Notes under the pieces: generated by a model
The model's input: the letters and a program-made list of their open reading frames with translations, nothing else
What the model was told of the DNA's origin: nothing
Databases searched by the model: none
Shown: piece by piece, positions 19,310-47,863 of the stretch
How positions within the stretch are numbered: the stretch's first letter is position 1
Layout of the letters: every line of letters starts with the position of its first letter
Position numbers and translations under genes: made by a program
Source of the DNA: Nitrogeniibacter mangrovi
GTDB lineage: Bacteria > Pseudomonadota > Gammaproteobacteria > Burkholderiales > Rhodocyclaceae
Length of the DNA stretch: 64,000 nucleotides
Direction: 5' to 3'
Assembly (NCBI RefSeq): GCF_010983895.1
Contig: NZ_CP048836.1
Location: 3,100,001 to 3,164,000 of the forward strand

Positions 19310-20275
19310 TCAGGCCTTGCGGCGACGGGAAGCAGCCAGACCGAGAAGACCGAGGCCGAGGATCGACAGGGTCGCCGGCTCCGGCACGCGGTTGATCGTC
19401 GCCGGGTCGTTACTGGCGAAGATGAACGGAGAGGCACCGTTCCCGAGCAGCACGTTGCTGGAGTTGTACTCGATCTCCGACGTTGCCACGAACTGCGTGC
19501 AGTTGACCGCCGGGTTGGCGATCTCGGCCGGCGAGCAGATCTGGCTGGCGGACACGCCACCGACGAGGCTCTCGTTCAGGTCGTTGATGAGGTTGAGCGT
19601 ACCGCCGTTGTAGGCAGCGCCCAGCAGCATCAGGTTCAGACCGAGGTAGCTCTCGGTGGTGGTCGCGGTACCCGGCGCGGTCTGATCGTCAATCGCGTAG
19701 GCGAAGCCACCGTTGTTGCCGGCCGCGATGCCGAGGCTGGCCCAGAGGGTGCCGTCGGTCGCCAGGTTGATGATGTCCATGACGCTACCGCTCGTGGTCT
19801 GCGTGAAGGCCGTTGCGCCGCCATCCACGTAGAAGCGGAACATCTCACCAGCAGCCAGGATGCCGAACGGATCGGAAGCCACGGTACCGAAGGTGATCTG
19901 GGCGGCTGCCGAACCGGCAGCGCTCAGCCCCGTCACTTCCTGGGCAAAGTAGCCCTGGAACTGATCGGTGCCGGACTGATACCAGGAGCTGCCGTCCGCG
20001 TGATCGATGTTCTGAACGCGCAGGACACCGGCGAACACGTCACCGACCATCACGTTACCGGCGATGGTCGGGTCGACCAGCTGGTAGCCAGCCGGGGCGT
20101 CTGCGTTTGCCAGACAGCCGCCAGCGGCCGCGCACTGTGCGTCGGTCCGGTACTGGTTTTCGAGGTTGTTGTAATAGATGCTGTTGCTACCGGCTTCGAT
20201 CACCGGCGCGGCAAAGGCAGAGCCAACCACCAGGCTTGCGGCTGCCGCGATCATCGCATGTTTGACTTGTTTCAC
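19310..20275 (-). CDS. PEP-CTERM sorting-domain surface protein
   Basis: This 321-residue protein is a substrate for an exosortase. It has a signal peptide (cleavage likely after residue 22, SAFA|AP), a low-complexity Ala, Gly, Thr and Asn-rich body with no recognised catalytic motif, and a C-terminal tail with VPEP at 297-300, a hydrophobic helix of about 14 residues and the basic end SRRRKA. Exosortase is expected to cut near the PEP motif and free the protein for the surface or the extracellular matrix. The start codon is GTG, 8 bases after GGAGAAG. A sigma-54 promoter lies about 55 bases upstream. Four Cys residues occur in the mature part (two near 43-54). Confidence 0.93.
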   Translation of the reverse strand: MKQVKHAMIAAAASLVVGSAFAAPVIEAGSNSIYYNNLENQYRTDAQCAAAGGCLANADAPAGYQLVDPTIAGNVMVGDVFAGVLRVQNIDHADGSSWYQSGTDQFQGYFAQEVTGLSAAGSAAAQITFGTVASDPFGILAAGEMFRFYVDGGATAFTQTTSGSVMDIINLATDGTLWASLGIAAGNNGGFAYAIDDQTAPGTATTTESYLGLNLMLLGAAYNGGTLNLINDLNESLVGGVSASQICSPAEIANPAVNCTQFVATSEIEYNSSNVLLGNGASPFIFASNDPATINRVPEPATLSILGLGLLGLAASRRRKA

Positions 20276-20328: not shown

Positions 20329-20344
20329 AGCACGTGGCATGCCA
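20329..20344 (-). promoter_or_regulatory. Sigma-54 (-24/-12) promoter of the PEP-CTERM gene
   Basis: On the minus strand the sequence TGGCATGCCACGTGCT matches the RpoN consensus TGGCACGNNNNTTGCW at 10 of 12 fixed positions and has the required GG-N10-GC spacing. It leaves a leader of about 45 bases. Upstream, TTGT-TTTT-ACAA (20369-20380) is an inverted repeat that could bind an activator. Confidence 0.72.
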
Positions 20345-20462
20345 GCATTGAACACAATACGTATGACTTTGTTTTTACAAGGCTTTTTCAACGATCGGCG
20401 AGCATGCCTCGGTGCCGCGGATCGGTGGTGTAAATTCTGCCGACACCGCCGCGCCGTACGCT

Positions 20463-21380
20463 TCACCGTGCGATCAATCGCCAGAAACGCTCCACCGCCG
20501 CACGATCTCCGGTCACTTCGGCGGCATAGGCCATCTGCTGCCGCTGACAGTCGTCCCGACCGTCGAAAAATTCACGAAACTGACTGGCATAACACATCAT
20601 CGCGTCAACCTTGATGTCAGCACGATGGTCAAGAATGTCGACATCCGGCGCCAGTCGCCAACGGTCGGCAAAACACGGGTCGCGCCGGTGCTGCCCGAGC
20701 AGCCGATAGAAATAGACGCCGGTTACCGGTACCGCGGCCAGGCGCACGGGCCACGGTTCGAGGTGTTTCATGATCGCGGTGCTGGCGTAGCTGCGCATGG
20801 CATCCCACGCCGTACGCAGGCGTCCCGGCAGCGGCACGGCCGCTTCGTCCTCCGGCGACAAGTCCGCGAGGCGAGCGGCGGCAGCACGGTCGACGTAACA
20901 GTAGGGGGCATCCTCATACAAGCGCAGGCGAGGATCGCCCCACCAAGCCTCACCCAGGAAGAAGGTGAGCAGGTGATCCACATGCCAGCCGATGGCCAAC
21001 GGCACGTAGATCTCGTCGAAATCGACACCCTCCAGACGCGTCAGCACCTTCCGGCGCAAGGCCTCGAGAAAGGCCCCGGTGTCCTCGCCGACGGGCGGCC
21101 GGAACACGTTGGAGATGGCGCGATACGCCTCGCGCCGGCACGAGGCATCCACCTTGTGCAGGTTTTCCGACTCGAATCCCAGCAAGCGCGCCGCCCGGCT
21201 TTCCTCCTCGTAGCGCTCCGGACCGAGGACGACGGCCCGCGACTTGATCTGTTCCGGGAACTCCGTAAACAGGTTGAGCACCAGCACCGGCCCTTCCGTC
21301 ACCAGCGACGCGATACGCCCGCCGCAGGAGAAGACCGCGTCATCCAGATGGGGGGAGAGAATGACCGCGCGGTATTTCAT
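20463..21380 (-). CDS. PIG-L/LmbE-family N-acetylglucosamine-type deacetylase
   Basis: This 305-residue cytoplasmic enzyme is a zinc-dependent deacetylase of the LmbE fold. Zinc-binding motifs are clear: SPHLDDAVFS (His11, Asp13, Asp14) and GWHVDHL (His133, Asp135, His136). Family members remove an acetyl group from N-acetylglucosamine-bearing molecules, as in MshB and BshB. It overlaps the GT4 gene by ATGA, so the two are co-translated, and a substrate made by that glycosyltransferase is inferred. The C-terminal 150 residues, with an HRRDPCFADRW segment, are less conserved. Confidence 0.88.
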   Translation of the reverse strand: MKYRAVILSPHLDDAVFSCGGRIASLVTEGPVLVLNLFTEFPEQIKSRAVVLGPERYEEESRAARLLGFESENLHKVDASCRREAYRAISNVFRPPVGEDTGAFLEALRRKVLTRLEGVDFDEIYVPLAIGWHVDHLLTFFLGEAWWGDPRLRLYEDAPYCYVDRAAAARLADLSPEDEAAVPLPGRLRTAWDAMRSYASTAIMKHLEPWPVRLAAVPVTGVYFYRLLGQHRRDPCFADRWRLAPDVDILDHRADIKVDAMMCYASQFREFFDGRDDCQRQQMAYAAEVTGDRAAVERFWRLIAR

Positions 21381-22567
21381 TCGAAAACTCCGGAGGCTGC
21401 GCCGGTCGGGCGCCCGCGCTGTCGGCAGACGTCGAGGTAGAGCTCAAGCAGCTCGCCGACGATGGCCGCGGGGGTGTAGTGCGCAGCGCGCTCCCGTCCC
21501 GCCGCGCCCATCTGCAGGCGCCCGGTGTCGTCCTGGGCGAAGGCGATCATGCGCTCGGCCAGGTCGGACGGATCCGCCGGGTCGACGATCTGGCCGGTCA
21601 CACCCGGTTCGACCATCTCCCGCGCCGCCGCGATGGCCCGGGTCACGATCACCGGTTTGCTGAACCACATGGCCTCGAGCACCACCAGCGGCTGCGCCTC
21701 CTCGACCGACGGCAGCACGAACAGATCGCAGCTGCGGTAGCGCGTCGCCAGCATGGCCGGATCGAGGAAGCCGAGGAAATCCACCTGGTCGCGGATACCG
21801 AGCTCGCCGGCCAACGCCTCCAGCGACGGCCCGGTCGGCCCGCGCCCCGCAATCCACAGGCGCGCGTCGGGCACCGCCTCGCGCAGCCGGCGGAACGCCC
21901 GCAGCAGCAGTCCGATATTCTTTTCCGGCCCGAGGCGACCGGCGTAGAGGACGACGAATGCGCCATTGCGTTGTGCCGGCGACACCGCCGCCGGGTCACC
22001 GAAGCCGACCGGGTTGCTGATGTGCCGGAGCGGTACGGTCACGCCATCGGCACGCAGGCGCTCGCTCAGACTCGACGAAGGCACGATCACCACGTCGCAG
22101 CGATTGCTGTAGGCCACCATCTGCGCGCGAATAATGCCGCGCATGGGGCGCATCACGAGCGGCTGGGTCAGGACTTCGGCGCTGAAATGGTGGGTCGACA
22201 CCTGGGGCAGCCCGAGTCGCGCCGCCACCGCCAGAACCCGCTTCATCATCAGGCTGGCGTAATGGTGATGGACCAGGTCGACGCCTTCCTCGGTCAGGAT
22301 GTCGCGGATGCGCCGCTTCGAGGGCAGCCCCTGGTAAAAGCCGAAGACCCGCACGGACGGCACCCGATGGATCCGGACCCCTTCCCAGTCTTCGATCTCC
22401 GGCTGCCCGGCACGCCGGGTGGTGACGAGCACGACCCGATGGCCACGGGCGACCATCTCCCGTGCAATGAGCTGGATGTGGGTCCCGACCCCGGTCATCG
22501 CCGGAATGGCGTCGTCGGACACCAGGCACACAGTCAGCGGGCTGGAGGGGGGCATCTCGGTGGTCAC
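21377..22567 (-). CDS. Family 4 glycosyltransferase
   Basis: This 396-residue GT-B enzyme should move a sugar from a nucleotide-sugar donor to an unknown acceptor in the cytoplasm. It has the N-terminal acceptor domain with TGVGTHI, and a donor domain with YAGRLGPEKNIGLLLRAF and the EX7E motif (EAQPLVVLE). GTG 22567 is preferred as start since AGAGGAG lies 6 bases before it; a TTG two codons upstream would touch that site. It lies between the nitroreductase-like gene (13 bases upstream) and the PIG-L gene (overlap). The GT4-plus-PIG-L pairing recalls MshA/MshB and BshA/BshB in low-molecular-weight thiol pathways, though the substrate here is unknown. Confidence 0.88.
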   Translation of the reverse strand: MTTEMPPSSPLTVCLVSDDAIPAMTGVGTHIQLIAREMVARGHRVVLVTTRRAGQPEIEDWEGVRIHRVPSVRVFGFYQGLPSKRRIRDILTEEGVDLVHHHYASLMMKRVLAVAARLGLPQVSTHHFSAEVLTQPLVMRPMRGIIRAQMVAYSNRCDVVIVPSSSLSERLRADGVTVPLRHISNPVGFGDPAAVSPAQRNGAFVVLYAGRLGPEKNIGLLLRAFRRLREAVPDARLWIAGRGPTGPSLEALAGELGIRDQVDFLGFLDPAMLATRYRSCDLFVLPSVEEAQPLVVLEAMWFSKPVIVTRAIAAAREMVEPGVTGQIVDPADPSDLAERMIAFAQDDTGRLQMGAAGRERAAHYTPAAIVGELLELYLDVCRQRGRPTGAASGVFE

Positions 22568-22580
22568 GCGCAACTCCTCT

Positions 22581-23678
22581 TCATGCCGCCTCGACGGTAT
22601 CGTGGCCGTCGACGACGATCAGGTCGTCCAGATCGAGCCGCAGCGAACGGGACGTCGGCGGCGCGCCACGCCCGACCCGCCCCATGAACACGGCCGGGGC
22701 CTCCGCGCTTACCGACCACACGTCGTTGAAGCGCTCTGCCACCGCGGCGGCGGCGGCGTTGACCGGCGCACGCGCGGACAGCGCCTGCCCGTCCTGAACG
22801 TACCAGCGGAAGATGACCGGCGTCATCTCCGGCTGGAATCCGAGGCCAAGGCGCGCGGCGGTGAGCCACACGCGCTGCATCGCCATGCCGGCCTGCACCT
22901 GCTCCCGGTCGGATCGCGCCGGTTGCCGCGGCCGAATCAGGAAATGCCCGGCGCACGCCAGCCCCGGAATGAGATCGAGCTGAATGCGCGGCATCACCGT
23001 GCCGGCCAGATAGGTGTTCAGAAAATCGACACGCTTCCAGTCGGCGAGCACCCAGCGCATGAGTCGCGCCGTCAGACTGTCGACCCCGACCGCGCGCTCC
23101 GGGATGCGGTCCTTGCTGAACCGGACGCCCCATTCGATGATGCGGCGGTGGGTTTCGTAGGCCTCCGGGCAGATCAGGCGCACCCGGGCGCTGTGCCACA
23201 GCAGTTTGGCGACCTCGAGACGCTCGCGAGCGCCGGTGCGGAAGTCGACGTGGTAGTCGGGGCCTGCCGCCTCCGTCAACGCGGCCATTTCCGCGCTCGT
23301 AAGCGCCGGTGTGCGCATGGGGCGCCGCTGCACACAGCGGGATTCGACGAAGGGCAGCAGCGGGTCGGGCGCGAGTGCGTCCGCCGGCTCGAAGCCGATC
23401 TCGTAGACCGGCGCCGTCTCGTCGCCTCCCTCACGCAGGCGCCAGCCCATGCGGGCCTGCTGCTCGGTGGCCGCGATCCGCAGGGTCTCCAACAGGGCCC
23501 CATGCGCCATGCGGCTGGGAATGCCGCGGTAGTCGTAGAGGCACCAGCTGCGGGTATCGCTGCCCAGCACCTCCACGGTGCGCGCGCCGGTGATCCGGAA
23601 ACGCCACGGTTGCGTGTTGTCGCCGCTGGGGGCCCAGCGGCCGAGATCGAGCATCCGCCTCAGATCGAGATCAGCCAT
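22581..23678 (-). CDS. Nitroreductase-fold protein paired with a ThiF-like E1
   Basis: This 365-residue protein has a nitroreductase (FMN-dependent) fold. The N-terminal RWAPSGDNTQPWRF segment (14-27) is the usual phosphate-binding APS-N-QPW signature, and a GLGFQPEMTPV segment with Gly and Pro occurs in the last third. The length exceeds simple nitroreductases (about 200) and suggests a tandem or extended fold. It overlaps the ThiF gene by 8 bases. Mycobacterial MoeY-type proteins fuse ThiF and nitroreductase domains, so the two may work as one enzyme here. No reaction can be assigned. Confidence 0.75.
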   Translation of the reverse strand: MADLDLRRMLDLGRWAPSGDNTQPWRFRITGARTVEVLGSDTRSWCLYDYRGIPSRMAHGALLETLRIAATEQQARMGWRLREGGDETAPVYEIGFEPADALAPDPLLPFVESRCVQRRPMRTPALTSAEMAALTEAAGPDYHVDFRTGARERLEVAKLLWHSARVRLICPEAYETHRRIIEWGVRFSKDRIPERAVGVDSLTARLMRWVLADWKRVDFLNTYLAGTVMPRIQLDLIPGLACAGHFLIRPRQPARSDREQVQAGMAMQRVWLTAARLGLGFQPEMTPVIFRWYVQDGQALSARAPVNAAAAAVAERFNDVWSVSAEAPAVFMGRVGRGAPPTSRSLRLDLDDLIVVDGHDTVEAA

Positions 23679-24555
23679 GGCTTGCCTGCCCCATCTTCTT
23701 GAGCTGACGGCGCGCGATGGCCAGGCCCAGACGCTGGATCGGGTTGCGATTGCCCCACGGCCGCCAGGTGTGCACCAGCCGGTTGCGATACACGTCGAAC
23801 TGGAAGCCGCGCGGCGCGCTGGGCACCTGCCCGCGACCGAGCAGCAGCTTGACCGCCTCGGCGCAGATGACCCCGGCGCACAGCTGGCAGGCGGCGATGG
23901 TCGACGGCCCCTTGCGCGCGCGCAGGTCCACCCGCGAGGGATCGGCGATGTAGCCGCGCTGCAGCATGGCGGGCGACAGACCGAGGACGAAGCGCAGGGC
24001 CATTTCCTCCTCGTCGGCCGCGCTCGCGAACTGGAAGTAGTCGTCGAAGGACATGCCCTTTGGATCAAAGTAGAGAAAGGCCACCCCGAAGCCGAGCGGC
24101 GCGGCGGTCACCGCCGGGATGCCGCGCGCCCGGCAGGCCGAGAACACCAGCCGGCGCGCCTCGAAGGCGAAGAAATCGAGGCTGTCCACATACAGATCCA
24201 CGCCGTCGAGAAAGGCATCGACATTGGCGGCCGACACCGCCTCGGGCAGCACGTCGAGACGCGCCTCCGGGTTGATGTCGCGGGTCATGGTCGCCAGCAC
24301 CGTGCTCTTGGGCTGCCCGAGGGTGGAGCACAGGGCACCGGCCTGACGATTGAAGTTCACAATGTCGAAAGAATCGAAATCCGCGATCCGGAACCCCCCG
24401 ACACCCAACCGGGCCAGCGTCAACAGATGGGCACCGCCCACCCCGCCGAGCCCTGCAATCGCCACCGTCTTACCCCTCAGACATGCCTGCTCCGCTTCCG
24501 TTACCCAGCCGATATTGCGCGAGAACGCGGCATCATAATCAAAGCCGTGGCTCAT
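23671..24555 (-). CDS. ThiF/MoeB-like E1 adenylyltransferase
   Basis: This 294-residue protein belongs to the E1-like superfamily, which activates a carboxylate by adenylation. Visible motifs: FSRNIG (12-17), the GLGGVGG nucleotide loop (35-41), the acidic DFD (59-61), NFNRQ (67-71), K83 and VDSLDFF (123-129). A CQLC pair (223-226) and Cys231 are the only late cysteines, so the usual four-Cys zinc site is not evident. No ubiquitin-like partner such as ThiS or MoaD is encoded nearby, so the substrate may be a small molecule or peptide. It leads a four-gene unit (ThiF, nitroreductase, GT4, PIG-L) and is divergent from the permease genes by 67 bases. Confidence 0.85.
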   Translation of the reverse strand: MSHGFDYDAAFSRNIGWVTEAEQACLRGKTVAIAGLGGVGGAHLLTLARLGVGGFRIADFDSFDIVNFNRQAGALCSTLGQPKSTVLATMTRDINPEARLDVLPEAVSAANVDAFLDGVDLYVDSLDFFAFEARRLVFSACRARGIPAVTAAPLGFGVAFLYFDPKGMSFDDYFQFASAADEEEMALRFVLGLSPAMLQRGYIADPSRVDLRARKGPSTIAACQLCAGVICAEAVKLLLGRGQVPSAPRGFQFDVYRNRLVHTWRPWGNRNPIQRLGLAIARRQLKKMGQASHG

Positions 24556-24622: not shown

Positions 24623-25867
24623 ATGACGAACAAATCACTCCAGTTGGGGCTGCAGGATCTCAAGCTCGCGGCGCGCAGCCTGCTGCGCCACCGCCGCCGC
24701 TCGGCACTCGCGGTCGGCATCGTAGCCGGCGGGGTGATCGCGTTTCTGCTCGCCGGCGGCTTCATCAACTGGATTCTGGTCAGCATGCGCGAGGCGACGA
24801 TCCACTCGCAGCTGGGCCACGTCCAGATCACCCGCCCGGACTATCTGTCCAAGGGCGTGGCCGATCCTTACCGGTACCTGCTGCCCGAAGTCAGCACCCA
24901 GGAGGCGGCCATCAAACAGGTCAAGGGCCTGAAAACGATCACGCCGCGACTGGCGTTCAGCGGCCTCATCAGCAAGGACGACGCCACCATCTCCTTCCTG
25001 GGCGAAGGCATCGATCCGGTCTCGGAGGCACCGATCACCGACGAGATCTCCATCGTCTCGGGCAAGGATCTGACCGAGAGTCCGCCCGACTCGGTGATCG
25101 TCGGCCAGGGGCTGGCCGCCAGCATCGGCGCCAAGGCCGGCGACCGCCTGGTGCTGCTCTCGACCACCCGCAGCGGTAGCCTCAATGCGGTGGAGGCCAC
25201 CGTGGCCGGCCTCTTCGTCACCGTCTCCAAACCCTACGACGACAGCGTGCTGCGTGCGCCCATCGAGCTGGCGCGCCGTCTGGTCGGCGTCTCCGGCGCC
25301 ACCAGCTGGGTGGTGCTGCTCGACGAGACCGACGAGACCGACGCGGCCGTCGCGACCCTGCGTCGCACGCTCGACCCGGCACAGTTCGAGGTCACCCCAT
25401 GGACGGCGCTGGCGGATTTCTACAACAAGACGGTGGAGCTGTTCTCCAAGCAAGTGGGCATCGTGCGCCTGCTGATCGGCATGATCGTCATCCTCAGCAT
25501 CACCAACACCCTGACCATGTCGGTCATGGAGCGGACCAACGAGATCGGCACCGCCATGGCGCTGGGCATCGCGCGCGTGGGCATCCTGCGCCAGTTCCTG
25601 TTCGAGGGCGTGCTCATCGGCATCGTCGGCGGCATCGGCGGCAGTGTCGTCGGCTGGCTGCTGTCGGTGTCGATTTCCGCCGTGGGCATCCCGATGCCCC
25701 CCGCGCCGGGCATGACCGAAGGCTACCTGGGGGAGATCCAGCTGTCGCTGCCGCTCATCCAGGATTCGCTCACGCTGGCGATCTTCACCACCCTCCTGGC
25801 GAGCCTGTTTCCGGCCTGGAAGGCTTCCCGGATGGCCATCGTCGACGCACTTCGCTACCAGCGCTAG
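24623..25867 (+). CDS. FtsX-like ABC transporter permease (first of a pair)
   Basis: This 414-residue inner-membrane protein has one N-terminal membrane helix (about 24-45), a periplasmic region of about 220 residues (MacB-type core domain) and three C-terminal helices with the typical FtsX stretch MERTNEIGTAMALGI. Such permeases work with a separate ATPase to drive lipoprotein sorting or efflux from the periplasmic side (LolCDE, MacB family). No ATPase gene follows. It is 13 bases upstream of a second permease that shares its plan. Confidence 0.9.
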   Translation: MTNKSLQLGLQDLKLAARSLLRHRRRSALAVGIVAGGVIAFLLAGGFINWILVSMREATIHSQLGHVQITRPDYLSKGVADPYRYLLPEVSTQEAAIKQVKGLKTITPRLAFSGLISKDDATISFLGEGIDPVSEAPITDEISIVSGKDLTESPPDSVIVGQGLAASIGAKAGDRLVLLSTTRSGSLNAVEATVAGLFVTVSKPYDDSVLRAPIELARRLVGVSGATSWVVLLDETDETDAAVATLRRTLDPAQFEVTPWTALADFYNKTVELFSKQVGIVRLLIGMIVILSITNTLTMSVMERTNEIGTAMALGIARVGILRQFLFEGVLIGIVGGIGGSVVGWLLSVSISAVGIPMPPAPGMTEGYLGEIQLSLPLIQDSLTLAIFTTLLASLFPAWKASRMAIVDALRYQR

Positions 25868-25880
25868 GAAAACGCAACAC

Positions 25881-27095
25881 ATGATCGTCAAACTCGCCCT
25901 GCGCAACGTGTTCCGCCAGAAGGCCCGCACCGCCATGACCCTGGCGGCCATCGTCTTCGGTGTCGCCGGGCTCATCATCGCGGGCGGCTTCGTCCAGGAC
26001 GTCTTCATCCAGCTCGGCGAAGCGGTCGTCCACACCCAGACCGGCCACGTCCAGGTCTTCCGCAAGGGCTTCTTCGAGCATGGCACACGCCGCCCCGAGC
26101 AGTACCTGATCGACGACGCCGGCGCGATCAAGCAAGCGCTGGCCAAGCTGCCCCATGTGCAACACGTGAGCGCCCGGCTCAATTTCTCCGGCCTCATGAA
26201 CAACGGCAAGCGGGACTTCCCCATCGTCGGCGAGGGCATCGAGCCCAAGGTCGAAGCCAAGCTCAGCGATTACCTGAAGATCACCGCCGGGCGCACTCTC
26301 GGCGACGACGACCGCTTCGGCATGCTCGTCGGCCAGGGCGTCGCCGAACACCTGCAGCTGTCGCCGGGCGATCATGTGACGCTGGTGATCAACACCGCCG
26401 CGGGCGCGCTCAACTCGCTCGATTTCACCGTCGTCGGCGTGTTCCAGAGCTTCTCCAAGGACTTCGATGCGCGCGCGGTGCGCATTCCGCTCCAGGCCGC
26501 CCAGACGCTCATGAACACCGACGGCGCCAACGTCCTCGTGATGGTCGCCGACGACACCGAGCACACCGACGCGGTCCTCGCCGCCACCCGGGCGCAGCTG
26601 GCCGGCGGCCCGCTCGAAGCGCGCTCGTGGCGCCAGCTGTCGGACTTCTTCGACAAGACCGTCCAGCTCTATGACGCCCAGTTCGGCTTCCTCAAGTTCA
26701 TCATCCTGGTCATGGTGATCCTGTCGGTGGTCAACAGCGTGAACATGAACGTGTTCGAGCGCATGAGCGAATTCGGCACCATGCGGGCCATCGGCACGAC
26801 ACCACGCAATGTGTTCGTGCTCCTGGTGGTGGAAAACACCTTGCTCGGCTGTGGCGGCGCCCTGCTCGGCGTTCTCATCGGCATGCTGGTGGCGCTCATC
26901 GTCTCGGCGATCGGCATCCCCATGCCGCCACCCCCCAACGCCAGCCTCGGCTACACCGCCTACATCCGGCTGGTGCCCAGCACCATCGCCGGCGCCTTTC
27001 TGGTCGGTGTGCTCGCCACCGTGCTCGCAGCCCTGCTGCCGGCACGTCGCGCCGCCCACCGGCCCATCGTCGATGCACTACGGCAGGGCACCTGA
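25881..27095 (+). CDS. FtsX-like ABC transporter permease (second of a pair)
   Basis: This 404-residue protein has the same plan as its neighbour: a first helix near 20-40, a periplasmic core with GHVQVFRKGFF, and three C-terminal helices containing FERMSEFGTMRAIGT. Shared segments such as TGHVQV/LGHVQI and GEGIEP/GEGIDP show tandem duplication and divergence. The pair may form a LolC/LolE-like heterodimer. It lies 27 bases before the exosortase-associated acyltransferase, so a role in exporting an acylated product is possible but unproven. Confidence 0.9.
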   Translation: MIVKLALRNVFRQKARTAMTLAAIVFGVAGLIIAGGFVQDVFIQLGEAVVHTQTGHVQVFRKGFFEHGTRRPEQYLIDDAGAIKQALAKLPHVQHVSARLNFSGLMNNGKRDFPIVGEGIEPKVEAKLSDYLKITAGRTLGDDDRFGMLVGQGVAEHLQLSPGDHVTLVINTAAGALNSLDFTVVGVFQSFSKDFDARAVRIPLQAAQTLMNTDGANVLVMVADDTEHTDAVLAATRAQLAGGPLEARSWRQLSDFFDKTVQLYDAQFGFLKFIILVMVILSVVNSVNMNVFERMSEFGTMRAIGTTPRNVFVLLVVENTLLGCGGALLGVLIGMLVALIVSAIGIPMPPPPNASLGYTAYIRLVPSTIAGAFLVGVLATVLAALLPARRAAHRPIVDALRQGT

Positions 27096-27122: not shown

Positions 27123-27875
27123 ATGTCGCTGTTTGACCGCTTCAACCTCGGCGCGGGTTTTAGCAAGTATTTCCAGATCGAAGCCGCCGCCGACGACACC
27201 ATCCGCGACGAGGTGTATCGCGTCCGCCACGAAGTCTATTGCGAGGAGCTCAAGTTCGAGCCCGAGCGACCCGACCGCCGGGAGATCGACGTCTACGATG
27301 CCCACAGCGTGCACTGCCTGCTGCGCTCCGCACGCGATCCGTTCGCGCCCGTCGGCTGCACCCGACTGATCCTGGCCGACCCGGAGGATCTGGACGCCCC
27401 GCTGCCCTTCGAGGCGGCCTGCGCGCATACCCTCGATCGCTCGCTCATCGATCCGGCGCGGCTGGATCGGCGCCGGATCGCCGAAGTGTCCCGGCTGGCC
27501 GTGCGCTCGGCCTACCGCCGGCGCCGGGGCGAACGCCACGTGGCGGTCGCCCTCGACGAGTCGGATTACAACGACAGCGAAGATCAGCCGCGCTTCCCGT
27601 ACATCCCCATCGGCCTGTATCTGGGTGCCGTGGCGCTGGCCGCGCGCAACGGCGTCGATACCCTGTTCGTGCTGACCGAGCCACGCCTGGCCTCCCATTT
27701 CGGCAAGCTCGGCGTCGAGATCCGCCAGATCGGCGGCCCCATCGAACATCGGGGCACCCGCGTGCCGTCGATGATGGATGTCCAGTCGATCATCAAGGGC
27801 CTGCGCTTCATGGTCAAACCCATCTGGCGGGTCGTACAGGGGCAGATCGAGAACAGCTACCGACATGACCGCTGA
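27123..27875 (+). CDS. PEP-CTERM/exosortase system-associated acyltransferase
   Basis: This 250-residue protein belongs to the GNAT-fold family found with XrtA exosortase systems (TIGR03694), related to autoinducer synthases. Typical features: a YRVRHEVYCEELKFEP start, GCTRLILADPE, RRRIAEVSRLAVRSAYRRR and the FLVTEPRLASHFGKLG-like segment. It probably moves an acyl group to an amino group; the substrate is unknown. ATG 27123 is preceded by TTGGAGAATCAC; an in-frame TTG four codons earlier overlaps that site and is rejected. It ends the permease operon and is followed by a strong terminator. Confidence 0.85.
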   Translation: MSLFDRFNLGAGFSKYFQIEAAADDTIRDEVYRVRHEVYCEELKFEPERPDRREIDVYDAHSVHCLLRSARDPFAPVGCTRLILADPEDLDAPLPFEAACAHTLDRSLIDPARLDRRRIAEVSRLAVRSAYRRRRGERHVAVALDESDYNDSEDQPRFPYIPIGLYLGAVALAARNGVDTLFVLTEPRLASHFGKLGVEIRQIGGPIEHRGTRVPSMMDVQSIIKGLRFMVKPIWRVVQGQIENSYRHDR

Positions 27876-41634: not shown

Positions 41635-44424
41635 TTACAGGCCACCGCGCAGGGCGACAGCCTCGTCGTGCACCGAGGTGCCGACCGGGTAGTCGGTGAC
41701 CAGCTGGTCGAGGATTTTACGCGCATCGTCCTTGCGCTTGGCGGCGATGTAGCCCTTGGCCAGATTGAGCTTCAGCGCCGGCGTCTTCGGCGCCAAGCTG
41801 ACGGCTTTCTCCATCTTCGTGACTCCCGATGCCGCATCGCCGTGGCCGACCTCGATCATGCCGACCGTGTCAAGGATGGCCGCGCTCTCGGGGGACAGTT
41901 CGATGGCGCGCTTGCCGTAGCCCATCGCCCGAGGATCGCCCAGCTCGTTCGCCACCCAGGCAAGGTTGTTGAGGATGCCGGCCCGGTTGGGCTCCAGTTC
42001 ATCGAGCTTCTGATATTGCGCAAACGCTTTGTCCAGCTGCTTGCGGGACAGATAGTAGTCGGCCATGTAGGCGGTGACCTGGGTATCCTTCGGCGACTTC
42101 TTCAGCCAGTCCGCCATCAGTTTTGCCGCCTCGTCCGTACGCTGGCTCCGGCTCAAGGCGTCATGCAGCTTGATGAGCGTCGCCGAGCTGGGCGCGGTCT
42201 CGTGCGCCTTGCGGAACATGGCGAGCGCCGCATCGCCGTCCCCTTTGGCGGTGAGCACATCGGCCTCGAACAGGTAGCCCTGCGCCAGTTTGGGCGCGGC
42301 CTTCTGCAACTGGCGCGCGGTATCCACGGCCTTGCCATACTGCTTGTTCTTGACGTACTGGCCGATCAGGAAGCGATAGGTCTCGACGTTGGCGGGATTG
42401 AGCTCGAGCGACTTTTGCAGGGCCTCGACGGCCGCCCGGCCGTCGCCGGACATCTGCAGCACGCGACCGAGATCCAGCCACGCGCCGGCATCTTCGGGCC
42501 GGGTGTCCACCCATTTGCGGAAGGCCGTCGCGGCCTGCTCGAGGTCGCCGTTCGCCATCAGGGCCCGGCCCAGCATCTCCTGCACGGCGGGGTTCGTCGG
42601 TTCGAGTGCCGCGGCGTCGCGAACCATGGCCAGGGCCTCGGTGCGCGCATTGGTGCGCAGCATGAAATCGGCCATGCGCAGTTTCGGGGCCGCCTGGTCG
42701 GGCGCGGCATCGACGGCACCCTGGAGGTATTGCTTCACCTTCTCGGGATTCTTGTCGGTGGCTTCCTCCAGTTGCGCGAGGGCGAAGTAGACATCGGGCC
42801 GCTGCTTGTTGCGCGCGAGCATGTCGGTGAACAGCTTGCGGGCCGCAGGAACATCGCCTTTCTTGACCTCGAGGCGCGCCAGGTTGGTCGCCGCCGGCAG
42901 AAAGTCGGGGTCGACCTCGAGCGAGCGCCGGAAGGCCTTCGCCGCCGCCTCGGGATCGCCCTTGCCGAGCATGATGCCGCCGCGCAGGTTGTAGGTCAGC
43001 GGATTGTTCGGCAGCTTCTTCTCGAGCGTCTCCTGGGCCTTGAGGGCCTCGTCGAACTTCTTGCCGAGCAGGAGCACGGTGATGCGCGCGAAGTCCGGGT
43101 AGGTCTGCTTTTCGTCCAGCGAACTGGCGGTGCTCAATTCCTCCAGACCCTTGTCCACCTCGCCCGAGGCGAGCCGGGTGATGGCCAGCCGGGTCAGGGC
43201 GCGGGCATCGTCCGGCGCACGCTCGACCTGGCGGCCGAAGAACTCCGCCGCCTTGTCGAGATTGCCTGCGAGCAGGTTGGCCTGACCAGCCAGGCGCAAC
43301 ACGTCGGGAGAATCAGGCATTTTCTTCAGCAAGGGCTCGAGCGCTTTGAGCGCACGCTCCGCATCGCGCTGGGCGATGAAGGACATCACCAGCCAGCGGC
43401 TGGCGACCGGATTGCCCGGCGACACCTCAAGCACCTTGTTCAGGTTCGCCTGGGCCTGCAGCTGATCGTTGAGACGGTAGAACACCGCACCGGCGAGCAG
43501 GCGGGCCGGCATGTAGTCCGGGGCCTTGCCGATGACTTCCTGCACCGCGTCCCGCGCCGCCTCCAGCTTGCCGGTGCGAAAATCCAGATAGGCCTGCAGG
43601 TACCACACCGCCGGCGATTTGCCGACCGCCTTTTCCATGGCCGCGAGTTCCTGTCGCGCCTCGTCGACCCGGTTGGTCTGCAGCAGGGTCGTCACCACCG
43701 GCACGTAGAGCTGCTGCTGCTTGGGCGCCAGACCAATGGCCTTGTGGAAGGCCGCCATGGCCCCGTCCGCATCACGCGCCCCCAGCAGGGCATTGCCCTT
43801 GAGCTCATAGGCATCGACCAGATCGGGGCTCTCGGCGATCACGGCATCGATCATGCGCACGGCTTCGTTGAAGTTACCGGCCAGCGCCTGCAACCGCGCC
43901 AGACCGACCTTGGCATGGGCATTGCTGGGGTTGGCCTTGATGGCCGCGCGGTAGTCACGCTCCGCTTCACCGCGCTTGTCGCGCGAGCGCGCGTCTCCGA
44001 GCACGGTCAGCAACTTGGACAGCTCGACCGGATCCTTGAGCGAGGTGCTCGAGTAGGTCTTGATGACCTCCTCGCGCTGCCCCTGCGCGATCAGCGCACG
44101 CGCGAGCATCGGAATCGCATCCTCACCCTGATAGCCGAGGCTGATGGCGTGGCGCAGCTCCTTGGCCGCATCGGCCATGTCGCCACGCTCGAAATAGATC
44201 TTGCCGAGCAGGTAGCGCGCCTCGGTCAGCTCGGCGTTCTTCTGCAAAGCGTTCTTGAGCTGAATGACCGCCGCGTTGTAGTCCTTCTTCTGGATATAGT
44301 CCTGCGCCGACTTGACCATGTCGTCCGGATTGCCGCCACAGGCGGTGAGCAGCATCCCGGCGAGGATCAGGGGCATCACGCGGGCGGCACGGGACAAGGG
44401 CTTCTTCGATGAACGCTTGCTCAC
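41635..44424 (-). CDS. prsT: XrtA/PEP-CTERM system TPR lipoprotein PrsT
   Basis: PrsT is the large TPR protein that goes with exosortase XrtA and polysaccharide genes (TIGR02917). The 929-residue protein has a lipoprotein signal with Cys29 in LLTACGG and more than 20 TPR units, many with the A..L..Y..A pattern (for example MADAAKELRHAISLGYQ, DAAAKAFRRSLEVDP, EQAATAFRKWVDTRP). It is thought to help polysaccharide export across the outer membrane. It begins 2 bases after the prsR stop codon, so it is co-translated with it. Confidence 0.96.
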   Translation of the reverse strand: MSKRSSKKPLSRAARVMPLILAGMLLTACGGNPDDMVKSAQDYIQKKDYNAAVIQLKNALQKNAELTEARYLLGKIYFERGDMADAAKELRHAISLGYQGEDAIPMLARALIAQGQREEVIKTYSSTSLKDPVELSKLLTVLGDARSRDKRGEAERDYRAAIKANPSNAHAKVGLARLQALAGNFNEAVRMIDAVIAESPDLVDAYELKGNALLGARDADGAMAAFHKAIGLAPKQQQLYVPVVTTLLQTNRVDEARQELAAMEKAVGKSPAVWYLQAYLDFRTGKLEAARDAVQEVIGKAPDYMPARLLAGAVFYRLNDQLQAQANLNKVLEVSPGNPVASRWLVMSFIAQRDAERALKALEPLLKKMPDSPDVLRLAGQANLLAGNLDKAAEFFGRQVERAPDDARALTRLAITRLASGEVDKGLEELSTASSLDEKQTYPDFARITVLLLGKKFDEALKAQETLEKKLPNNPLTYNLRGGIMLGKGDPEAAAKAFRRSLEVDPDFLPAATNLARLEVKKGDVPAARKLFTDMLARNKQRPDVYFALAQLEEATDKNPEKVKQYLQGAVDAAPDQAAPKLRMADFMLRTNARTEALAMVRDAAALEPTNPAVQEMLGRALMANGDLEQAATAFRKWVDTRPEDAGAWLDLGRVLQMSGDGRAAVEALQKSLELNPANVETYRFLIGQYVKNKQYGKAVDTARQLQKAAPKLAQGYLFEADVLTAKGDGDAALAMFRKAHETAPSSATLIKLHDALSRSQRTDEAAKLMADWLKKSPKDTQVTAYMADYYLSRKQLDKAFAQYQKLDELEPNRAGILNNLAWVANELGDPRAMGYGKRAIELSPESAAILDTVGMIEVGHGDAASGVTKMEKAVSLAPKTPALKLNLAKGYIAAKRKDDARKILDQLVTDYPVGTSVHDEAVALRGGL

Positions 44425-44426
44425 AG

Positions 44427-45788
44427 TCAGGCTTCCTTCTTGATTCCGAATCGGTTCATGAGGTCGTACAGGGTCGGGCGGCTGACGCCCAGCACTTCGG
44501 CGGCGCGCGCGATATTGCCGTTGACCCGCGACAGGACGTTGGCGACCGCGGCCCGCTCGGCCGCTTCGCGTACCTGGCGCAGGTTGAGCATCTCGAGTGC
44601 CTCGTCGGGCGCGGCCAGACCCAGGTCTTCGGCCGTGACGCGGTTGTCCTCGGCCATGATGACTGCACGCTTGACGCAGTTCTCCAGCTCACGAACGTTG
44701 CCAGGCCACCGGTGCGCCTCGATGGCGCTGACCGCATCGTCGGACAGGCGCATGGTGCCGCGCCCGTTCTCGGACGCGAAGCGCTGCACGAAGGCGTGGG
44801 CCAGCAGGCTGGCATCCCCCGGCCGATCCCGCAGGGGCGGGATGTCGATCACGATTTCGGCCAGGCGGTAGTACAGATCCTCGCGGAAGGCGCCGGTTTC
44901 GATGAGGCGTTTGAGATTCTGATGGGTCGCGCACACCACACGCACATCGACCGGAATCTCGCTGCGTCCGCCGATACGCTCGATGACCCGCTCCTGAAGG
45001 AAACGCAGCAGCTTGGCCTGCAAGGGCATGGGCAGATCGCCGATCTCGTCGAGGAACAGCGTCCCCTTGTCCGCGGTCTCGATCTTGCCGGGGGTCTGCT
45101 TGACCGCGCCCGTGAACGCGCCCTTTTCGTAGCCGAACAGCTCCGCCTCGAGCAAGGTGTCGGGAATCGCGGCGCAATTGATGGCAACGAAGCGCTCCTT
45201 GGCGCGCGACGACAGGGTGTGCAATCCGCGGGCGAGGACCTCCTTGCCGGTGCCGCTCTCGCCCAGCAAGGCCACGGTGACATTGTGGGCCGAGGCCACC
45301 TTCTCCACCGTCCGGCACACCTTGAGCATGCCGGCGTCCCGAGTCAGCACGCCCTCGAGGGCCGCGCCGCTGGCCGCCTTGAGGCGGGTATTTTCGCGCT
45401 GCAGATCGTAGAGCCGGAAGGCACGGTCGATGGTCAGGGTCAGCAGCTCGGGCTCGAAGGGTTTGGCGAAGAAATCATACGCACCCAGACCGACCGCTCG
45501 AACCGCATTCTCACGGTCATGCTGGCCGGTCAGCACGATCACCTTGGTATCGGGCGCCAGCGACAGCATCTCCTGCAGGAGTGCAAAGCCCTCGCTCACG
45601 CCATCGGGATCGGGCGGCAGCCCGAGATCCATGGTCACGACCGGCGGCTCGTGCCGGCGCAGCTGCGTGATCGCGCTTTCGCGATCGCTGGCAAGAACGG
45701 TCTCGTAATCGTCGAACGCCCAGCGCATCTGCTTCTGCAGCGCCGGGTCGTCCTCGACCACCATCAATGTACGTTGTTTGTCGCTCAT
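44427..45788 (-). CDS. prsR: PEP-CTERM-box sigma-54 response regulator PrsR
   Basis: PrsR is an NtrC-type activator (TIGR02915). The 453-residue protein has an N-terminal receiver (Asp13, Asp14, phospho-acceptor Asp54, Lys in FFAKPFEP), a sigma-54-interacting AAA+ domain ([15 protein letters not shown] loop, [18 protein letters not shown]) and a Fis-type helix-turn-helix ([22 protein letters not shown]). It drives sigma-54 promoters of PEP-CTERM genes in related species. Its start overlaps the prsK stop by ATGA. The PEP-CTERM gene at 19310-20275 has a -24/-12 promoter and is a likely target. Confidence 0.96.
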
Positions 45789-47863
45789 GAATTCGCTTCG
45801 GATTGCGCCGGGTCCGCCGGTCCGGTCGTGGGCAACATCAATTCCATGGTGGTCCCGACCTTCGGGGTGCTTTCGACGACGATATCCCCGCCCAGCTCGC
45901 GCACGTACTGGCGCGCTTCGAACACCCCGATACCCATGCCACTGGCCTTGGTGGTGTGGAACGGCTTGAACAGCTGGTCGCGCACGAATTCGGGAGTCAT
46001 GCCACTGCCGGTATCACTCACGCGGATGATCGCCCGATCCTCTCCCGCGCTGCTCAAACATGCACTCACCATACCATCGTCGTCGGTCGCGTCGAGGGCA
46101 TTTTGCACGATATGCCCAACGACTCGCTCCAGGCGCTCGGGGTTGGCGCGCACCCACACCGGCGCCTCGGGGACGGATACGTCCACCGCCGGCCGATACT
46201 GGCTGCGATGCGACGCGATCCGGGCCAGCATCTGGCCCAGTTCCACCGGGCGATCCCGGTCGATGGCGGTCTTCTTCTGCAGCTGCTGCATCAGATCGCG
46301 CATCTTGTGTTCCACATGCGCCACCGTCTCCAGCATGTCCGCCTGGAACTCGGGGTTGTCCTTGTATTTTTCCGCATTGCGCAACATCAGGGACAGCTGG
46401 GCCACGAGATTCTTGAGGTCGTGAACCACGAAGGCCGACATTCGATTGAACGCATCGAACTTGCGCGCCTCGATGAGTGCCTCGGCCACCTGCATGCGCG
46501 CCAGATAGCTGGCGGCCTGGCGCTGGGCCGTCTTGAGCAGGTCGAGCACCTCCCAGTTGATCTCCACCGGCGTGCGCGGCGCCAGCAGCACCACGAAGCC
46601 GATCAGGTCGTCGCTGGCGATGAGCGGCACCACGAGCCAGGCGTCCGGCAGCTCGGACAGCCAGCGCGGCGGTCGCAGCGCACCGTAGGTCCCCGGCCGG
46701 ATGCGGAATTCCTCGAGATTGAAGATCCAGCCCTCGCGTGCGAGAAATCGGCACAGCGCGCTATCGGACGGTTCGGTGGCCTCCGCCTCGGGCATGTTCA
46801 ACCGTGCCCGCAGCGTCATCTGCCCGCCGCCGCCATCCATCCACAATCCCCCGCCGGCGCTCTCCACCAGGTCGGCCAGGGCCGCAATGGTGGCCTGCCC
46901 CAGATCGTGCCCGCCCTCGCCGGCATCCAAGGCGCGGGTAAACTTCAGCCATTCGGCGCGGTAATCGTATCGATACGGAAACAGGTGCTTGTTGATGAAC
47001 ACCCGCAGCCGCGCCCGCTGCGCGCCGGAGAAGGCAACCACGCCGAGCACCACTGCGCCGGTGAAGAACAGCGCGATCTGCAGCGCGCGTCCCCAGTCGC
47101 CGCCGAAGTAACGCACGTAATACCCTGCGGCGGCCACGACGAGGAGGTACACCCCCGAGACCGCGAGCGCGGTGGAATGGAACACCAGCTCCCGGGACAC
47201 CGACAGGCGGATCGCCCAGCCCGGCACACGTGCGGCGGAAATGGCGATCAGGGGCAGCACCATGGCGTGTACCAGGCCCCGGATACTCCAGATTTCAGGA
47301 TCGATGCCGCCGAACAGGAACGCGTCGGCGAACAGGTACAGATCGAACACCGACGTCGCCGCAATGGCCAGACAGAACGGCTTGAGCCCCCACCGCGACT
47401 CGGCGGGCAGCAATCGATACAGCTGCTCGACGAGCACCAGCGAGAAGACCGCGGCGAACAATTGCGCCAGGATGCCGAGACGGGCCGGGTCGCCCAGCGC
47501 GGCAATCCCGAACGCGGCGAGCAGCAGGGTGACGAAGCGGACGCCGATCACCCCGATCGTCACGCGCCGCGGCCAGCGGCGGCGGCTACCGTCGATCTGG
47601 CGCACCAAGCCGAGGGTGAACCACAACCAGGCACCGTCCCGCAGCACCGTCGCCAACCCCTGAAGCAGGGCACCATAGCGCAGCCCCGAACTGGCGAACA
47701 CACTGGTCACGCACCACAGCGTGCTGGCAGCCAGGGCCAGCAGCAGCATGTTGCCGGCCCCCTGACCACGCCGGGCCGCCGCCACGTACAGGCCAAAAAG
47801 GAAAAACGCCACGGCCGCAAGGGCATACCCCCAGACGGCCACATGCGTCAGTTCAGCGACCAT
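45785..47863 (-). CDS. prsK: XrtA/PEP-CTERM system histidine kinase PrsK
   Basis: PrsK is the membrane sensor kinase that partners PrsR (TIGR02916). The 692-residue protein has eight or so N-terminal membrane helices (about 1-280), a GAF-like domain (about 320-450), a phospho-acceptor His in FVVHDLKNLVAQLS, and a HATPase domain with VQNALDATDDDG and DTGSGMTP. The HDLKN variant of the H box is typical for this family. It overlaps prsR by ATGA and sits 59 bases after the sugar transferase. Confidence 0.95.
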   Translation of the reverse strand: MVAELTHVAVWGYALAAVAFFLFGLYVAAARRGQGAGNMLLLALAASTLWCVTSVFASSGLRYGALLQGLATVLRDGAWLWFTLGLVRQIDGSRRRWPRRVTIGVIGVRFVTLLLAAFGIAALGDPARLGILAQLFAAVFSLVLVEQLYRLLPAESRWGLKPFCLAIAATSVFDLYLFADAFLFGGIDPEIWSIRGLVHAMVLPLIAISAARVPGWAIRLSVSRELVFHSTALAVSGVYLLVVAAAGYYVRYFGGDWGRALQIALFFTGAVVLGVVAFSGAQRARLRVFINKHLFPYRYDYRAEWLKFTRALDAGEGGHDLGQATIAALADLVESAGGGLWMDGGGGQMTLRARLNMPEAEATEPSDSALCRFLAREGWIFNLEEFRIRPGTYGALRPPRWLSELPDAWLVVPLIASDDLIGFVVLLAPRTPVEINWEVLDLLKTAQRQAASYLARMQVAEALIEARKFDAFNRMSAFVVHDLKNLVAQLSLMLRNAEKYKDNPEFQADMLETVAHVEHKMRDLMQQLQKKTAIDRDRPVELGQMLARIASHRSQYRPAVDVSVPEAPVWVRANPERLERVVGHIVQNALDATDDDGMVSACLSSAGEDRAIIRVSDTGSGMTPEFVRDQLFKPFHTTKASGMGIGVFEARQYVRELGGDIVVESTPKVGTTMELMLPTTGPADPAQSEANS

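Follow-up and report, generated by a model that had tools for sequence, protein, structure and literature searches.

A stretch of 64,000 nucleotides from the single-contig, 4.24-Mb genome of Nitrogeniibacter mangrovi (positions 3,100,001 to 3,164,000; hereafter the window) contains four open frames on its minus strand that encode a ThiF-like adenylating enzyme (E1), a flavoprotein of the nitroreductase superfamily (NR), a GT4 glycosyltransferase and a PIG-L family deacetylase. Judged from sequence, E1, NR and a neighbouring N-acyl amino acid synthase represent a module for oxazolone or N-acyl-dehydro-amino-acid biosynthesis, and both this core and its setting are of known kinds. GT4 and PIG-L form a conserved and undescribed sugar cassette on this core. 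An oxazolone-type route with a GT4–PIG-L extension is the best overall explanation of the locus, a reading that we favour with modest confidence, and suggests a so far undescribed sugar-decorated surface lipid.

The coordinates, overlaps and gap that led a preliminary description of this DNA to call the genes one compact unit on one strand were all verified. E1 and NR overlap by 8 bases, NR and GT4 are separated by 13 bases (an alternative GT4 start, TTG at 22573, is possible) and GT4 and PIG-L share a 4-base ATGA overlap. Pfam scores for ThiF, Nitroreductase, Glycos_transf_1 and PIG-L each exceed their own cut-offs. Purifying selection acts on each of the four genes, with ratios of nonsynonymous to synonymous change (pN/pS) of 0.29 for E1, 0.18 for NR, 0.13 for GT4 and 0.47 for PIG-L in a comparison with the nearest relative of the same gene order. 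Because that order recurs in three other genomes and these ratios are low, the four-gene unit is more than a chance arrangement. Three features are absent from the preliminary description: the N-acyltransferase gene, a PEP-CTERM gene and a prsT-prsR-prsK group (Table 1).

The E1 is most strongly assigned to the PRK08223 family (463 bits, cut-off 266), followed by the E1–nitroreductase fusion families PRK14851 (302 bits) and PRK14852 (240 bits), all well ahead of ThiF (90 bits) and MoeB (48 bits). R70, K83, D124 and D127 are invariant across 26 aligned homologues, and D124 and D127 align with the Asp pair of Escherichia coli ThiF, including the adenylation Asp; no Cys column is invariant in this alignment, C226 being nearly so. 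An AlphaFold model of NR (predicted local distance difference test score, pLDDT, 89.9) has as its best match in the PDB the Acg protein of M. smegmatis (2YMV, E 1e-11; next match 9.7e-5). The NR residues R167 and Q282, invariant in 27 sequences, lie near the expected offset of TrzS Arg540 and Gln651 in the PRK07877 match, a possible correspondence judged by offset. Against NF005901, the Rv1355c (MoeY/TrzS) family with a cut-off of 476 bits, E1 (67 bits) and NR (104 bits) both score below. A whole-genome search with PF13444 located the synthase, a 250-aa protein encoded divergently from E1 beyond two ATP-binding cassette (ABC) permeases. Of the features that characterize pathways of the OxzAB, TyzABC and TrzAS kind, a cyclase, an adjacent oxidase and a neighbouring synthase are present.

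We examined the neighbourhood of E1 across a wider set of genomes. E1 is found in 45 of 150 genomes of the family (E ≤ 1e-30), in 9 of 10 of the genus and in 26 of 274 of the class (E ≤ 1e-35), and a scan of named genomes gave at least 526 E1 relatives, of which the best 80 were kept. Stretches of 20 kb were fetched from the other genomes with E1 (40 of 44 in the family, 19 of 25 in the class and the 6 left in the genus), and the locus of genome G921 was added through a PIG-L match. Adding the 80 named loci and the window gives 147 loci. Of these, 136 are non-redundant by E1 sequence, and 99 of the 136 have 5 kb of flank at each end. The main locus counts come from a six-frame search; scripted gene calls missed E1 in 12 of the 147 loci and NR in at least 4 genomes. 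Within 5 kb of E1, the 99 loci include 78 with NR, 62 with a synthase, 46 with both, 74 with a PEP-CTERM gene and 25 with XrtA polysaccharide genes. The conserved neighbours of E1 are synthase, nitroreductase, transporter and PEP-CTERM genes.

Gene fusions support the E1–NR–synthase trio. E1 and NR lie in one open segment at 18 of the 136 loci, and plasmid pDVUL01 of Nitratidesulfovibrio vulgaris DP4 carries a gene (L227:7068-10037) whose 989-aa product unites FeeM, ThiF and nitroreductase domains in one chain. This gene adjoins XrtA polysaccharide genes and a pair of PEP-CTERM genes of the THxN kind. The preliminary description could assign the gene set to no known pathway, a view superseded by the match of the trio to oxazolone/N-acyl-dehydro-amino-acid biosynthesis. 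Its idea of a small-molecule route with activation by E1 together with a flavoprotein agrees with the homologous OxzAB, TyzABC and TrzAS enzymes. Its comparison with Rv1355c/MoeY was the correct lead, because Rv1355c has since been shown to be TrzS, a ThiF cyclase fused to a flavin oxidase, with tryptazolones as its products (PMC12856293).

The GT4–PIG-L pair is present at 4 of the 136 E1 loci, always in the order E1-NR-GT4-PIG-L followed by a related PEP-CTERM protein. The loci other than the window are L105 (genome G808), the Thiobacillus metagenome-assembled genome RS341 (L193, found via the E1 scan) and L224 (genome G921). Junctions are overlapping or tight in the window, L105 and L193, and the NR–GT4 gap of L224 is 129 bases. 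Identities to the window for E1, NR, GT4, PIG-L and the PEP-CTERM protein, in that order, are 75, 85, 90, 55 and 66% in G808, 65, 51, 57, 51 and 64% in L193, and 60, 46, 55, 48 and 39% in G921. The recurrence at four loci in two lineages speaks against a neighbourhood formed by chance, while the pair itself turns out to be optional. A tree of 122 E1 proteins places the four loci in two clades, where well-supported branches force at least two changes; the cassette was thus gained twice, transferred or often lost. When the DNA of the window is compared with that of the G808 locus in bins of 150 bases, identity is 0.71-0.89 across the NR–GT4 block (window 21401-23650), as against 0.61-0.80 in E1 and the permeases and 0.47-0.75 in PIG-L, and the block looks to have been exchanged between lineages.

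A search with PIG-L found no orthologue in any other genome of the family (150 searched). Matches were obtained in 2 of 10 genus, 3 of 399 order and 2 of 398 phylum genomes, in draws that overlap and with one phylum match of half length. The full-length proteins of at least 48% identity from this PIG-L-only search (window, G808 and G921) are encoded in the order E1-NR-GT4-PIG-L-PEP-CTERM in 3 of 3 cases. Genome G841, with a 37% PIG-L relative, has a divergent GT4 neighbour, and E1 was not found in its 20 kb. H11, D13, D14, H133, D135 and H136 of PIG-L are invariant, and the HLDD and HVDH motifs, which we take to be the metal and catalytic sites, are intact in 6 of 6 homologues aligned. A structure model of PIG-L was set aside (mean pLDDT 52 from a 3-row alignment). 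Two views of the pair were rejected: that it is general to E1 loci (0 in the 40 family loci of a first pass) and that it is a private accident of this genome (G808, Thiobacillus RS341 and G921).

The PEP-CTERM protein beside the cassette is of a distinctive type. Homologues at E < 1e-10 occur only in GT4–PIG-L loci among 2493 fetched-locus proteins (duplicates included), a search of the 149 other genomes of the family at E < 1e-8 found none, and close congeners have a different PEP-CTERM type at the same place. Given this distribution among the proteins searched, GT4, PIG-L and the PEP-CTERM protein seem to move as a set.

The locus is linked to the XrtA exosortase system, with XrtA in the genome and a PEP-CTERM gene and prsTRK in the window. 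The co-occurrence with xrtA that had been proposed as a check is positive: XrtA scores above its cut-off in 40 of 45 family genomes that have E1 versus 25 of the 105 that lack it (counted by genus, 23 of 25 versus 11 of 43), and the two genes lie at most 21 kb apart in 14 of 22 genomes that have both on one contig. Of the 736 genes no more than four places from E1, 71 are PEP-CTERM genes, versus 2 of the 317 genes seven or more places away. The XrtA gene of N. mangrovi (334.7 bits, at G000:C1:2889449) is 234 kb distant, among export, chain-length and kinase genes, next to which stand genes for a DUF1302 protein, an ABC ATPase and a LolA-like protein. These three genes directly adjoin E1 and the permeases in several relatives, and one transport system thus seems to be split here between the E1 locus and the XrtA locus. 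An XrtA-type sugar transferase lies with prsT, prsR and prsK in the window, approximately 17 kb from the E1 locus. A second exosortase relative (G000:C1:735001-755000, L139; 137.6 bits, below the XrtA cut-off) adjoins a further polysaccharide locus that encodes a PEP-CTERM protein.

Other candidate decoration genes recur near E1. A GT1 (EryCIII/MGT-like) glycosyltransferase is found at 23 of 99 loci and a hexapeptide acyltransferase at 12 of 99 (L036, L040, L049, L058, L063, L181, L198 and others), and both are possible alternative decoration genes. With p-values serving as a guide only, since genome and gene rows are related by descent, GT1 is weakly enriched near E1 (17 near versus 1 far, p 0.02), and enrichment is not significant for LolA-like genes (16 versus 2, p 0.12) or for the hexapeptide acyltransferase (11 of 736 versus 3 of 317, p 0.57). 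The recurrence of GT1, an unrelated enzyme type, is a weak sign that the product carries a sugar.

The PEP-CTERM gene follows PIG-L after a gap of 187 bases and has its own near-consensus sigma-54-like site, and it is therefore probably a separate transcription unit. At a score of at least 17.5, a cut picked after seeing the scores, such sites precede PEP-CTERM genes near E1 in 72 of 79 cases, E1 itself in 5 of 101, the synthase in 3 of 63 and genes of other kinds in 35 of 618, and a shuffled-sequence control gave 0 of 79 PEP-CTERM genes and 22 of 618 others. The initial threshold of 12.5 was not discriminating, as it retained 77 of 79 PEP-CTERM genes but also 468 of 705 other genes. A PEP-CTERM gene that serves in floc formation and depends on RpoN has been described (PMC9850573). 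The presence of prsK and prsR in the window, together with the near-consensus sigma-54 sites at PEP-CTERM genes, suggests a PrsR regulon motif.

Table 1. Features of the locus and its surroundings (coordinates in the window).
Feature	Position	Strand	Details
E1 ThiF-like adenylating cyclase, PRK08223 family	23671..24555	-	294 aa; ThiF 139.5 bits; NF006077 463 bits
Flavin-dependent oxidase, nitroreductase superfamily, predicted desaturase	22581..23678	-	365 aa; Pfam 40.7 bits
GT4 glycosyltransferase	21377..22567	-	GTG start; Glycos_transf_1 136 bits, Glyco_transf_4 92 bits
PIG-L family deacetylase	20463..21380	-	305 aa; Pfam 36.8 bits; HLDD and HVDH intact
PEP-CTERM surface protein, type accompanying GT4–PIG-L	19310..20275	-	TIGR02595 23.6 bits, cut-off 16
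Sigma-54-like -24/-12 site 5' of the PEP-CTERM gene	20329..20345	-	CTGGCATGCCACGTGCT, score 18.5 of 20.5
LolC/E- or MacB-like ABC permease 1	24623..25867	+	FtsX, MacB_PCD; lolCE 110 bits, under cut-off
LolC/E- or MacB-like ABC permease 2	25881..27095	+	FtsX, MacB_PCD; lolCE 111 bits, under cut-off
N-acyl amino acid synthase, PEP-CTERM/exosortase-associated acyltransferase	27123..27875	+	PF13444 61.7 bits; TIGR03694 258.3 bits, cut-off 112
prsT, prsR, prsK (XrtA/PEP-CTERM tetratricopeptide repeat protein, sigma-54 response regulator, histidine kinase)	41635..47863	-	TIGR02917 792.5, TIGR02915 749.8, TIGR02916 836.5 bits, all above cut-offs

The enzyme families, gene order, conservation and genomic links given above are direct observations. 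By analogy with characterized enzymes, we infer a route that would begin with acylation of the amino group of an amino acid by the synthase. The E1 would then adenylate the carboxylate with ATP, allowing the amide oxygen to attack and close an oxazolone ring, a step for which a ubiquitin-like carrier would be unnecessary. The flavoprotein presumably desaturates the amino acid side chain using O2. We would guess that the two permeases and the ATPase, together with the LolA-like carrier and the DUF1302 protein of the XrtA locus, move the lipid outward. It is likewise a guess that, in this lineage and in the other three genomes sampled with the cassette, GT4 attaches an N-acetylated sugar to the product or its carrier and PIG-L then removes the acetyl group to leave a free amine. 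That the pair acts in this way on the acyl-amino-acid product, as a glycosylation and de-N-acetylation cassette, we would put at even chances.

Several observations weigh against this route. Fifteen E1 genomes were re-examined by NR alignment, chosen since gene calls lacked a nearby NR (one as a check); 4 of them have a full-length NR adjoining E1 after all, and in 11 of the 15 a full-length NR was found nowhere in the genome (L067, L068, G112, G033, G130, G119, G006, G372, G396, G273 and G805). E1 thus has some role without desaturation as well. L067 and L068 carry instead two TIGR03694-type acyltransferases or relatives, together with LolA-like, DUF1302 and resistance-nodulation-division (RND)-type transporter genes, and their gene content indicates a version of the pathway without desaturation. 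The synthase is not within 5 kb in 37 of 99 loci. GT4–PIG-L is absent from 132 of 136 loci and is thus not essential to the core, and a cassette that travels with a PEP-CTERM type also fits modification of a protein or polysaccharide. For this putative pathway, sequence does not tell which amino acid and which acyl group are used. In the sections covered of the relevant papers, oxazolone is not seen in dehydrotyrosine producers and the role of ThiF there is called enigmatic (PMC12479983), and the ThiF genes of R. gelatinosus stand in a polysaccharide cluster without an asterisk in the gene table (PMC3684757).

The strongest competing view keeps the core as proposed and has GT4 and PIG-L modify the neighbouring PEP-CTERM protein or an exopolysaccharide unit, merely sharing the operon. 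The confinement of the cassette-type PEP-CTERM protein (66, 64 and 39% identical to that of the window) to GT4–PIG-L loci among the proteins searched is consistent with this, as is the occurrence of GT4–PIG-L neighbours in glycan-type loci without E1 (L140 and L225). However, the four biosynthetic genes are tightly packed, whereas the PEP-CTERM gene stands across its gap behind a sigma-54-like promoter of a kind rare at E1 genes, and the joining of a glycan enzyme pair to E1–NR in two lineages would be left unexplained. We regard this arrangement as a doubtful but serious contender.

It is rather improbable that E1 works with a ligation partner instead of releasing an oxazolone. E1 loci without NR do exist, often with two synthase-like genes and with LolA-like, DUF1302 and RND-type transporter genes (L067 and L068), and the covered sections of PMC12479983 report no oxazolone from N-acyl-dehydrotyrosine producers. 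Nevertheless, ATP-dependent cyclization of the substrate has been shown for TyzB and TrzS, in characterized pathways that are described there without a ligation partner (PMC10404671, PMC12856293).

A new type of glycoconjugate is a long shot. GT4 would place an N-acetylhexosamine on a carrier, PIG-L would free the amine, and E1 would activate a dehydro-N-acyl-amino acid, either as its adenylate or as an oxazolone, for ligation to that amine. If so, the oxazolone would be an acyl donor and not the end product, taking the place of the cysteine ligases MshC/BshC of thiol pathways, and the resulting lipo-aminosugar could anchor or tune the matching PEP-CTERM protein in the matrix.

An E1 for thiamine, molybdopterin or a ubiquitin-like carrier, or a bacillithiol/mycothiol-like thiol pathway following the MshA/MshB and BshA/BshB logic first suggested for GT4 and PIG-L, is highly improbable, as the kinship is at Pfam level and scores fall far under the cut-offs (ThiF 90 bits versus 275 and MoeB 48 versus 377, with no invariant Cys; GT4 partial matches to BshA, 86 versus 274, and MshA, 80 versus 463; BshB1, 22 versus 183), and the neighbours of E1 are those of the synthase, nitroreductase, transporter and PEP-CTERM kinds.

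Oxazolone lipids have been described since 2021; acid and methanol destroy oxazolones (PMC12856293). In many proteobacteria, E1 loci connect enzymes of the oxazolone type with the surface system of XrtA and PEP-CTERM proteins, and the extracellular matrix is therefore a testable place for these lipids; the PEP-CTERM protein PepA acts in Aquincola floc formation (PMC9850573). The GT4–PIG-L cassette leads us to predict that this lipid family has a glycosylated member, and such chemistry would be new. The PEP-CTERM type that accompanies the cassette offers a way into the question of what exosortase substrates carry or bind.

A survey of the open-licence literature, with subscription journals mostly outside its scope, found no joint mention of ThiF, nitroreductase and PEP-CTERM, and its sole co-mention of oxazolone with exosortase or PEP-CTERM concerns methanobactin. 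ThiF and exosortase are mentioned together in one paper. Among the open-licence matches listed, PIG-L stands beside other terms of this system only in a review of human glycosylphosphatidylinositol disease.

The OxzAB oxazolone synthetase of Pseudoalteromonas rubra was reportedly described by de Rond, Asay and Moore in 2021. Like the locus in the window, this system combines an N-acyltransferase, a ThiF cyclase and a flavin oxidase (as related in PMC12856293 and PMC10404671). OxzAB is a simple gene pair in which OxzB is fused, whereas the window encodes E1 and the oxidase as two proteins, has the synthase in divergent orientation past two permeases, and adds GT4 and PIG-L. The same three enzyme types make acyl-oxazolones in OxzAB, TyzABC and TrzAS (PMC10404671, PMC12856293). 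TyzB and TyzC are separate proteins, as in the window, and Acg is the nearest structure reported for TrzS too (PMC12856293). In contrast to our locus, the TyzABC and TrzAS systems belong to another phylum and have no GT4 or PIG-L, and the sections covered mention no PEP-CTERM or exosortase link; the same mycobacterial papers call the physiological role of oxazolones unresolved (PMC10404671, PMC12856293).

A second group of relatives produces open-chain N-acyl-dehydrotyrosines. Producers of kyonggic acid (Massilia), thalassotalic acid and stieleriacine have the same three genes (PMC12479983), and their clusters resemble the window in combining N-acyl amino acid synthase, ThiF and nitroreductase genes, with operon-like packing in two producers (PMC12479983, PMC7293339). 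These clusters differ from it in their open-chain products and, in Stieleria, in a tailoring gene for a methyltransferase and not a glycosyltransferase. The surface setting also has precedents. ThiF genes are listed within a PEP-CTERM polysaccharide cluster in a Rubrivivax gene table (PMC3684757), and the stieleriacine cluster, like the window, contains a PEP-CTERM gene (PMC7293339). The N-acyl amino acid synthases of Craig, Cherry and Brady 2011 (as cited in PMC7293339, PMC4897644 and PMC8776678) share with our locus both the synthase family and its tie to the PEP-CTERM/exosortase system.

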